Source: Alphaproteobacteria bacterium
GTDB taxonomy: Bacteria > Pseudomonadota > Alphaproteobacteria > SMXS01
NCBI GenBank assembly: GCA_028284945.1
Contig: JANQQJ010000025.1
Span: 1-64,000 of the forward strand
Reading direction: 5' to 3'
Length of the DNA: 64,000 bases
Shown: one piece after another, positions 1 to 56,759 of the stretch
How the letters are laid out: each line of letters opens with the position of its first letter
Numbering within the stretch: position 1 is the first letter of the stretch
Program-made: the position numbers and the translations under genes
The notes under the pieces: generated by a model
What the model saw: the letters and a program-made list of their open reading frames with translations, nothing else
What the model was told of the DNA's origin: nothing
The model's database searches: none

Positions 1-139
1 CTAGATCATCATCTGTTGAGTTGGAAGCGGATGGCGCTCCAGCTCAACAGATAAAGATGATCTAATCTATTGGTTTCTAGAGCAAATTTACCAGCTTAGT
101 TGGATCTCAGCGATTCCAACTAAGCTGGTTTTGCTCTAG
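1..139. repeat. 139-bp double-hairpin CTAG-bounded element, copy 1
   Basis: Same length as the element at 53008-53146, same orientation, and about 122 of 139 positions identical by eye. It holds two hairpins. The first (about 2-64) pairs TAGATCATC and TCTGTTGAG with their complements. The second (78-139) pairs CTAGAGCAAA with TTTGCTCTAG and ACCAGCTTAGTTGGA with its exact complement. Both ends are CTAG, and the right-hand CTA (136-138) is the TAG stop of the minus-strand response-regulator gene. It may act as a bidirectional terminator, a MITE-like element, or both. The window starts at its first base, so the left flank is unseen. Confidence 0.9.
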
Positions 140-21737: not shown

Positions 21738-21813
21738 TGGTGCCGCTGGGGTGACTCGAACACCCGACCCACGCATTACGAATGCGTTGCTCTACCACCT
21801 GAGCTACAGCGGC
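21738..21813 (-). tRNA. tRNA-Thr (anticodon CGU), CCA encoded
   Basis: On the minus strand the cloverleaf folds fully: acceptor GCCGCTG with CAGCGGC, D arm GCTC/GAGC, anticodon stem ACGCA/TGCGT around loop TTCGTAA (anticodon CGT), and T arm GGGTG-TTCGAGT-CACCC, followed by A and the encoded CCA. The anticodon reads codon ACG. The adjacent gene at 21901 has unusual base composition. Confidence 0.97.
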
Positions 21814-51144: not shown

Positions 51145-52761
51145 CTAGCGTGCTCTCATTTTTCGCAAGGCCTTGCCGGCAAACCGGCGTGCACGGCCCT
51201 TAAGGCGTCGGGCCTTGCGCAGCCATGGCGGCATATCGCGTATGAAGGCGTTGTTGCGGTGCAGCTCGAATACCAGATAGCGCGCCGGCACAGTGCCTTT
51301 ATTGCGGATGCCGTGGGGCTCGCCAGCTGCGATGGCCGCCACCGTGTTGGCTGGGGCCTGCGAGCCCAGAATTTCGATCGTGCCGGACAAGGTCAGGATG
51401 ACGGCGTCATAAGCGTCGATATGTGGTTCATAACCCTCGCCTGGCGCCATCTCGGACAGATGAATATGCAGTTTGCTCAACATCCCGGTCGGTTCGTCGG
51501 CTAGAACCGTGAGGGCAAGGCCGGGTTGATAGGGTTTCGGGTTAACCGAGGCGTCATAGCGTTTGGTCTCCAGCGGCCACTGCGCGCCTGACGGAGAGCC
51601 GCGCCACCGCAACATCAGATAGGTGACGGGCTTGTCGCTGGTATTGCGGATCGTATGGTGTTGTCCTGCGGGATAGTAGGCAAATTGATGCGGAGACAGG
51701 CGCTCCACTTTGGGTGCAGGGTCGTTGGGGGACGTCGCAAGCAGGGCCTCGGCTTCCCCGTCCAGCACAATCAGGATTTCTTCTTCTGGATGAATATGTG
51801 GCGGGTGCGGGCAATGGCCGGGCCTCAAAACAGACGTGTGGCAGCCAATCACGTCCAGTGCCGCGGTCTGAGCGAAGAAGGCGTTATAGGCTTTCCAGCC
51901 GCTCTCCGGGTCTTCCTCCAGCGGAAGATGATATTCGTGCAGCAGCGTGGAAAGCGATTGCATGTCTCTGTCCTTCAGGGCCGGTGGCGGCACGATTCGA
52001 TTAGCTTGTCCCGATGTCTGGCCGGAAACCAGAATCGACGGTGGGCGCGGCACCGCCTTCAGTTTCAGGGGCCAGTCGAGAACGTCCATGTCGGGGATGT
52101 GGATGGCCGTCTCGGCTGAAGCGTATTGCAGCAAAAGGGCACGGCGTATTCTTGTGGCGAACTTGTTTTCCGACCTATGCCACAGCCGGCCATCAAAGAA
52201 GACGGCATCCCCGTCTGCTGCATCGGGCGTCACTAAAGTTGCGCCGGGATCAAGCAGGTGTGCCCATGCGAGAACCTGATCGTCGGCGGCCGCGGCATAA
52301 GGTGTTTCGTCTTCGCTTGCCATTTGCTGCAGGATTTTTGGGAACCGGTGTGAACCGCTGACCATGGTCAGGCCGGAGCGGGCTGAAGTTTCTTTCAGGC
52401 CGATCCAAACACTAACGCAGGGACCGTCAGCCAGGCCGGACTCGATATCGACGTGCCAGGCGTGGCGTTGCCCGGGTTTCAGTGAAACGAAGTCCGCGCC
52501 CCACAGCACAATGTCGTCGCCCAATAAAGGTTGCAGACGGCGGACAATGGCATCGGATTGCGCGAGGCGGAAAATCGTCGGATCTATGACGGCTTTCGCT
52601 TTTCGCCAGTCTGGGGCCCGCACCGAATTTGTTCGACATAGATGTTGCGCAAGCCAGTGCGCATCCGCCGTAGGCATCAGATGTACCGGTTCCGAAAAAC
52701 CGTGTTCTTTGAAACCCGGCAGCGCTGCCGCTTCAATGGTGTCGTGAGATAGCTTGTTCAC
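51145..52761 (-). CDS. PhyH-like dioxygenase fused to a double cupin
   Basis: A 538-residue fusion. Residues 1 to about 235 follow the phytanoyl-CoA dioxygenase fold with the Fe ligands H103-x-D105 in HAWHVDIESG, the distal His195 in LWHRSENK and the 2-oxoglutarate Arg206. Residues 305-385 are a first cupin (H322, H324, E328 region, H368/H369) and 425-500 a second (H434, H447, H483), ending in a very basic tail. It is likely a regulator-like or chain-acting oxygenase that binds three metals. I know no assigned function for this exact layout. It is divergent from the small Cys-rich gene at 52835. Confidence 0.85.
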   Translation of the reverse strand: MNKLSHDTIEAAALPGFKEHGFSEPVHLMPTADAHWLAQHLCRTNSVRAPDWRKAKAVIDPTIFRLAQSDAIVRRLQPLLGDDIVLWGADFVSLKPGQRHAWHVDIESGLADGPCVSVWIGLKETSARSGLTMVSGSHRFPKILQQMASEDETPYAAAADDQVLAWAHLLDPGATLVTPDAADGDAVFFDGRLWHRSENKFATRIRRALLLQYASAETAIHIPDMDVLDWPLKLKAVPRPPSILVSGQTSGQANRIVPPPALKDRDMQSLSTLLHEYHLPLEEDPESGWKAYNAFFAQTAALDVIGCHTSVLRPGHCPHPPHIHPEEEILIVLDGEAEALLATSPNDPAPKVERLSPHQFAYYPAGQHHTIRNTSDKPVTYLMLRWRGSPSGAQWPLETKRYDASVNPKPYQPGLALTVLADEPTGMLSKLHIHLSEMAPGEGYEPHIDAYDAVILTLSGTIEILGSQAPANTVAAIAAGEPHGIRNKGTVPARYLVFELHRNNAFIRDMPPWLRKARRLKGRARRFAGKALRKMRAR

Positions 52762-52834
52762 CGGCGCGTTTAACTTCGATCAGTCATCAATGGCCTCTAC
52801 TATGCCATGGATTGGCATCGGAAGGCGTTCGATT

Positions 52835-53011
52835 ATGGCAGATATCACCATGTGCATGGGCGTTGACTGTCCACTGCGTGAAAACTGTTTTCGTTTCCGC
52901 GCGACATCTGAGCGGGAGAATCAGACCTATTTCATGGTTCCGCCGTTCAAGGACGGTGATTGCGACATGTTCTGGTCGATGGACGGACCGGTCGATAATT
53001 TGGGGCCCTAG
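52835..53011 (+). CDS. Small Cys-rich protein (58 residues)
   Basis: A 58-residue protein beginning MADITMCMGVDCPLRENCFRF, with four Cys in the pattern C-x4-C-x5-C...C (the fourth in DGDCDMFW). It fits a single metal (Zn or FeS) site and looks like a family of tiny proteins seen in varied bacteria and phages with unknown function. I chose the ATG at 52835 because the longer frame upstream has no ribosome site. Its TAG stop is made by the first CTAG of the 139-bp repeat. Confidence 0.75.
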   Translation: MADITMCMGVDCPLRENCFRFRATSERENQTYFMVPPFKDGDCDMFWSMDGPVDNLGP

Positions 53012-53146
53012 ATCATCATCTGTTGAGTTGGAAGCGCCCGGCGGTTCAACTCAACAGATAAAGATGATCTAATCCATTGGTTCCTAGAGCAAATTTACCA
53101 ACTCAGTTGGAGTTTCTGGATGCCAACTAAGCTGGTTTTGCTCTAG
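53008..53146. repeat. 139-bp double-hairpin CTAG-bounded element, copy 2
   Basis: The counterpart of 1-139, same orientation and exact length. It lies between a plus-strand gene (stop TAG at 53009-53011) and a minus-strand gene (stop TAG at 53143-53145), and both stops lie within its terminal CTAG. Substitutions versus copy 1 cluster in the hairpin loops and the second stem, while the terminal arms are unchanged. Both hairpins could terminate transcription from both sides. Confidence 0.9.
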
Positions 53147-53946
53147 GACAGGGCGGTCTGCATGGCTTCAAGACCGGCAGAAAACTCATCAGCCGTATCG
53201 TAGGGGATGCTGGCGATAATCAGGTCGACGCCGGCATCCTCCAGCGCCTGCACCTTGTCGCGATAGGTGACGGGGTCGTCCATCCGGGCAAAGGTCGTCA
53301 CGCTGGCGGGCCTGCTCGCTGCGTTGGCCTGACCCTTGTAGGCCTTGATTTCGGGCGCCAGGGCGACCGGATCGTTGCTCATGGGGAACCAGCCGTCGCA
53401 GAGCCGCACCGCCCTATCCGTTGCATGGGGCGCTGACCCGCCGATCAAGATGGGCGGCCGCTTGGGCCTCGGCTTGAACAGGAAGTCCTGGCCGTTGGCG
53501 GTCATCACATCGCTGGCAAAGCCATCGTTCAAAAACTGGATCGCGTCTTCGCTGATTTTGGCGCGGTCTTTCAGGGGTACGCCAAGCGCGTCGAACTCCG
53601 GCTTCATCCAGCCGATTCCGACGCCCAGGATGAGCCGTTCACCGGTTAGTTCCTGGACTGTCGCAATCCATTTCGCGAGGGGCAGCGCCGGGCGATAGGG
53701 CAGGACCAGAACACCGGTGCCCAGCATGATGTCGGTTGTCTGTGCGCCCAGCCAGGCCAGGGTGGCCAGCGGATCGAGATAGCGCCCGCCTGAACCCTCC
53801 GCATCATCCGGGGGAATCGCGATGTGGTCGGTCACCCAGATCGAGTGCAGCCCGGCTGCTTCAGCCTCAGCCGCGCAATGCGCCAACAGGCCGGGCGTCG
53901 ACTCTTTGCCCATATTGCGCAGCGTAATGCCGATAGGAATGCTCAT
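53143..53946 (-). CDS. LLM-class flavin (F420-type) oxidoreductase
   Basis: A 267-residue luciferase-like barrel protein, the third of the window. It shows SIWVTDHIAIP, ATLAWLGAQTTDIMLGTGVLVLPYR, the LTGERLILGVGIGWMKPEF loop and PKRPPILIGGSAP. It is slightly shorter than the other two because the C-terminal segment is trimmed. It is divergent from the photolyase gene at 54017, and its stop TAG is provided by the 139-bp repeat. Confidence 0.9.
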   Translation of the reverse strand: MSIPIGITLRNMGKESTPGLLAHCAAEAEAAGLHSIWVTDHIAIPPDDAEGSGGRYLDPLATLAWLGAQTTDIMLGTGVLVLPYRPALPLAKWIATVQELTGERLILGVGIGWMKPEFDALGVPLKDRAKISEDAIQFLNDGFASDVMTANGQDFLFKPRPKRPPILIGGSAPHATDRAVRLCDGWFPMSNDPVALAPEIKAYKGQANAASRPASVTTFARMDDPVTYRDKVQALEDAGVDLIIASIPYDTADEFSAGLEAMQTALS

Positions 53947-56625: not shown

Positions 56626-56647
56626 TCTCCTGTTTTGTGAATGGCGG

Positions 56648-56744
56648 CTAGGGTTCCGGCGCTTCTGAAGCGTGACTGGTCCGAGAGCCGCCGCCGGTCC
56701 GGTCAACAGCGGGCAGGTACACGGCGGGACAAAAGCCCGGGAGG
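56648..56744 (+). promoter_or_regulatory. Guanidine-I riboswitch (ykkC class)
   Basis: The sequence contains the class hallmarks in order: CTAGGGTTCCGGC, ACTGGTCCGAGAG, ACACGGCGGGACAAAAGCC and CCGGGAGG. These are the conserved strands that bind free guanidinium in the ykkC aptamer. It precedes the ABC-transporter gene by about 90 bp. Flanking bases on both sides likely complete the P1 stem. Confidence 0.94.
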
Positions 56745-56759
56745 TCACGGTGGTGCAGT

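Follow-up and report, generated by a model that had tools for sequence, protein, structure and literature searches.

The 139-bp double hairpin that occurs twice in the window, the 64,000-nucleotide stretch of DNA analyzed here, is very probably a non-coding, non-autonomous mobile element that targets the TA within YTAR and is of the same kind as the CIR, RIME and Bru-RS repeats. Its two halves are related palindromes that are arranged head to head, and the inner arm of each has a bulge of three bases (Table 1). The two window copies, at positions 1-139 (the start of contig C21) and 53008-53146, are equal in length, alike in orientation, 89% identical and bounded by CTAG, which agrees with the earlier note on this DNA that had estimated an identity of about 88%. 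Are these two copies part of a larger family? The genome-wide copy count suggested in that note gives about 19 copies in the 3.56-Mb source genome, a number that was obtained by a sequence search of a 44-contig draft and is approximate because the hairpins probably break the draft assembly.

Among the approximately 19 copies, two have an internal deletion (L015 and L018), six touch contig ends, and the remaining ones are full length or nearly so. In L018 (contig C35, around 81531-81617), hairpin 2 is mostly deleted and TTT lies opposite the AAA bulge, so hairpin 1 becomes a nearly perfect palindrome. Almost every intact end of the family reads CTAG, with rare one-base departures; unequal ends are found at L003 (CTAG...CTAA) and L005 (TTAG...CTAG). 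The diverged copy L019 may sit in a terminator loop (GGGGCTGCA...TGCAGCCCC-ATTTTTTT), the copy being too diverged for proof. Ten draft contig ends stop inside or at copies of this family and of a sibling family.

The sibling family is 117 bp long, shares the anatomy of the 139-bp repeat and is represented by approximately 12 copies in the source genome, likewise at stop codons. Over its full length it aligns, at 82% identity, with repeats of the Sinorhizobium meliloti plasmid pSymB, which in strain 1021 holds 18 matches, of which about ten are close to full length; we take these pSymB repeats to be, very probably, RIME1. The 117-bp family is present in seven of the 374 sampled genomes of the class, the source genome counted. 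One 117-bp copy directly follows the 139-bp copy L004, with a single CTAG common to both. A chimera at C43:20415-20523 (L151) combines a hairpin 1 of the 117-bp type with a right end of the 139-bp type, and ORFs stop on both of its terminal TAGs.

Table 1. Positions of the repeat, its parts and the adjoining stop codons in the window, with contig ends at repeat copies
Feature	Position	Strand	Basis
Element proper, copy 1, start of contig C21	4..136	+	Boundaries by analogy, as for copy 2
TAG stop of response-regulator gene 136-879 (OmpR-type)	136..138	-	ORF and profile match
Left copy of putative duplicated TA target (the flanking C at 53008 derives from the target)	53009..53010	.	Inferred from sibling family
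TAG stop of ORF 52754-53011	53009..53011	+	ORF list
Hairpin 1: 9+14 pairs, unpaired AAA on inner arm	53009..53071	+	Fold and alignment of copies
Element proper, copy 2 (first base G, last base C; 133 bp)	53011..53143	+	Boundaries by analogy with TA duplication in sibling family
Hairpin 2: 10+14 pairs, unpaired TTT on inner arm	53084..53146	+	Fold and alignment of copies
TAG stop of luciferase-like monooxygenase gene 53143-53946 (PF00296)	53143..53145	-	ORF list and profile match
Right copy of putative duplicated TA target (the flanking G at 53146 derives from the target)	53144..53145	.	Inferred from sibling family
Contig ends at copies of the 139-bp/117-bp families	Starts of C21, C43, C28, C15, C29; ends of C44, C22, C17, C16, C4		

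Filled and empty sites of the sibling family define how such repeats insert. At one site in Sinorhizobium, the flanks joined via one CTAG align in one piece to S. kummerowiae and to strain K101, and at a second site, the CTAG-joined flanks align whole to S. meliloti LMB1 and to strain C101; most S. meliloti are filled at both of these sites. At a third site, an empty TTAG, found in three genomes, corresponds to a filled TTAG...CTAG, and at a fourth site, an empty CTAA corresponds to a filled CTAG...CTAA. Insertion of the sibling family is real, and a 2-bp TA duplication within a YTAR target is the only fit because the ends at the third and fourth sites are unequal and a duplication of TAG or CTA fails one of the two; these two sites of the 117-bp family in Sinorhizobium are the decisive cases. 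In genome G037, an element is located at the stop of a gene for a Bcp-type peroxiredoxin, where the sister genome G404 has an empty CTAG and G403 has TGA. The locus L224, also tried, yielded no clean empty allele. Empty CTAG sites in sister strains, for which the earlier note had proposed a search, thus exist for sibling families, and the 139-bp family itself contributes as its sole empty site the stop of one flanking gene's ortholog (TTC-TAG in two relatives). The 139-bp family most likely duplicates TA rather than CTAG by analogy, and L003 and L005, which each depart from CTAG at one end only, point in the same direction, although these departures could also be point mutations.

We propose that the 139-bp family uses the same chemistry as its sibling, so that two head-to-head palindromes would insert at the TA of YTAR, mostly CTAG, and duplicate the TA. 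With a TA duplication, the first base of the element is G and the last is C. Because TA followed by the terminal G reads TAG on both strands, a TAA or TAG stop would always be rebuilt, and insertion into such a stop would leave the protein unchanged. Insertions inside genes would instead create stops and be lost, and the survivors would be those at gene ends, often between convergent genes.

The ends of the neighboring genes are consistent with this mechanism. Genes that read into the 139-bp copies end on the terminal TAG at all 16 of 16 ends, a result with a probability of (1/3)^16 = 2e-8 at random phase, where one third is expected; genes were told apart from mere ORFs by ORF length and codon score. 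As the earlier note had correctly described, the left CTAG of copy 2 provides the TAG of the plus-strand gene and its right CTAG that of the minus-strand gene, and the right CTAG of copy 1 ends the response-regulator gene. The idea that every copy lies at a gene end with a TAG stop applies to these read-in ends, whereas at other copies the neighboring genes end 3 to 32 bp off. The proteins encoded next to the copies appear complete: the response regulator contains Response_reg and Trans_reg_C domains, the latter matched to the profile end, and the other flanking proteins appear, on our reading, to include the Der GTPase, ATP synthase b', a biotinyl protein and SDRs. For four genes (LPKHLH*, GGWL-L*, KLRF/RISF* and AVMDG*), the orthologs without an element finish at the identical residue, and for two further genes the difference is 1-3 residues; their stops in relatives are TGA, TAA or TAG. 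The hits for the acyl-CoA ligase, the seventh gene compared, are probably paralogs and uninformative. Because the proteins end at or close to the same residue where the element is missing, the 139-bp elements are judged to sit on native stops and to truncate nothing in the tested cases. Stops are used by 12 of the 19 copies and by eight of the 23 tolerated CTAG sites of the window, i.e. those at a stop or between genes (p = 0.12), and therefore survivorship at the CTAG target explains most of the stop-codon pattern. Double stops are found at four of 13 copies versus none of the 23 tolerated window sites (p = 0.012); both comparisons use simple gene calls of our own.

Alternatively, the host could maintain the repeat between convergent genes as a conserved module with built-in stops, in the role of a bidirectional terminator or 3' end, a reading that we consider unlikely. 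It draws on the stability and conservation of the fold: copy 2 forms two hairpins on both strands (z = -8.8 and -10.0 against shuffles), stem pairing is kept in 97% of the paired cells of 13 aligned copies, and eight stem pairs exhibit compensated changes on both sides, a signal that collapses in slid controls. It also draws on the frequent convergent context, in which both stops lie inside the element at four copies. However, hairpin-templated DNA repair could likewise keep palindromes, and compensated stems are no proof of an RNA role. Furthermore, the hairpins are not followed by the U-tract of an intrinsic terminator, sister genomes have empty sites in the sibling families, stop-site use is only modestly above that of tolerated CTAG sites, and the distribution is species specific. 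Among the genomes searched, the 139-bp sequence is confined to the source genome: BLAST of 59 relatives detected no copy, a GTDB-wide pattern scan gave a single chance match in an unrelated MAG, and plasmids including pSymB contained no match. Of the module with built-in stops envisaged by the earlier note, one part stands, given that the terminal G completes TAG on both strands and the stop is in this sense partly built in; the empty sites and the missing U-tract speak against the remainder. A mobile element may nevertheless serve as a terminator after insertion. The 139-bp element has no match in Rfam. The Rfam matches elsewhere in the window are a Guanidine-I riboswitch (56637-56745, plus strand, 92.5 bits) and a tRNA gene (21741-21813, minus strand).

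A MITE with a 4-bp CTAG duplication, the other explanation in the earlier note, would account for the CTAG at both ends of most copies, and its insertion into CTAG and landing in stop codons are upheld by the empty CTAG sites of the sibling families. A 4-bp duplication predicts equal ends, whereas the off-consensus sibling sites have unequal ends that fit TA duplication within YTAR. The 4-bp version is thereby refuted for the sibling family, and it is highly improbable for the 139-bp family, where L003 and L005 are likewise unequal. Least probable of all is a REP/REPIN-type element that depends on a Y1 tyrosine transposase (RAYT) for its movement, given that TA duplication at YTAR, as in the sibling family, is not expected of Y1 transposases, that Y1_Tnp is absent from the source genome, and that the end motif is CTAG rather than GTAG (or GGAG) and lies within the pairing. 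Its paired inverted palindromes with asymmetric bulges resemble the 139-bp repeat, and GTAG REPs and REPINs, too, often supply their neighbors with TAG stops (PMC3733652).

The mobile-element reading places the 139-bp repeat, as a new sequence family, within a known kind; the earlier note had not recognized it as a named family, whereas it matches the published double-palindrome kind of CIR, RIME and Bru-RS, with CIR and Bru-RS likened by description and not by sequence. CIR, the Caulobacter CcrM-associated intergenic repeats that also occur in Brucella, are said to go back to Chen and Shapiro in 2003, and the RIME of rhizobia reportedly go back to Osteras in 1995. Literature searches, with the 1995 RIME and 2003 CIR papers outside their scope, found no CTAG palindrome family described. 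CIR consist of two stem-loops and a linker, with terminal TA and GANTC in one terminal loop, and are intergenic in alphaproteobacteria (PMC2229807). Similarly, the 139-bp repeat has two long inverted-repeat arms with a linker, TA at both termini, many intergenic copies and an alphaproteobacterial host, and it carries GATTC in the hairpin-2 loop of 11 of the 13 aligned copies (GANTC is expected by chance 0.29 times per 139 bp), the copy at 53008-53146 lacking it. CIR differ in length, at about 110 bp. Bru-RS1 and Bru-RS2 of Brucella are also palindromic intergenic repeats, of 103-105 bp (PMC2267715), and act as hot spots for the associated IS711, which uses a YTAR target and duplicates TA (PMC2266754). 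RUP and other TA-duplicating MITEs with an IS630 partner are, like the 139-bp repeat, short and non-coding and use a TA target (PMC2229807). RUP has terminal inverted repeats in common with its IS, whereas the 139-bp element consists of two palindromes, and the search for a partner IS was negative. The link to RIME runs through the 117-bp sibling, which matches the pSymB repeats; the 139-bp family has no such sequence match.

Which enzyme moves the repeat? IS630-type elements duplicate TA. Transposases of the DDE_3, DUF4096, DDE_Tnp_1 and Y1_Tnp families were not found in the 44-contig draft, and IS200/REP, IS630 and IS4/IS5-type transposases were rejected as a resident enzyme, being absent from the source genome. 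A search for an IS whose terminal repeats match the 139-bp element found none; ISs of other genomes share its target, not its ends. IS5-type elements with DUF4096 are flanked by C-TA and TA-G in genomes G037, G250, G301, G304 and G316, and in G037 three of them lie inside the CTAG ends of small palindromes (L186, L199 and L202). The likely enzyme is a TA-duplicating DDE transposase of the IS5/IS427 type, or of the IS630 type, which would have acted in trans and would now be absent from the genome.

Of 387 genomes of the class, 29 contain palindromes of the form CTAGAGC...GCTCTAG, in part by chance and in part as clear families, with nine in G037 and seven in G320. At 40 of these palindrome loci, 45 ends have an ORF of at least 150 codons; the ORF stops precisely at the terminal TAG in 27 cases and elsewhere inside in seven. 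A tentative extension is that the G...C ends and the YTAR target constitute a selected, stop-neutral strategy, by which a class-wide palindromic superfamily would enter stop codons, frequently those of convergent genes, and restore both stops while its sequences turn over from genus to genus; we regard this as possible rather than probable.

The YTAR target and the TA duplication are newly worked out here, on the sibling family. A review lists the target duplication of CIR as unknown and leaves the movement of CIR-type repeats unexplained (PMC2229807), and the comparison of empty and filled sites supplies a target, a duplication and a likely enzyme class. The YTAR/TA target also gives a simple reason for the location of such repeats at stop codons. 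Moreover, the mobility of widespread alphaproteobacterial repeats becomes testable in S. meliloti, where a site varies between strains.
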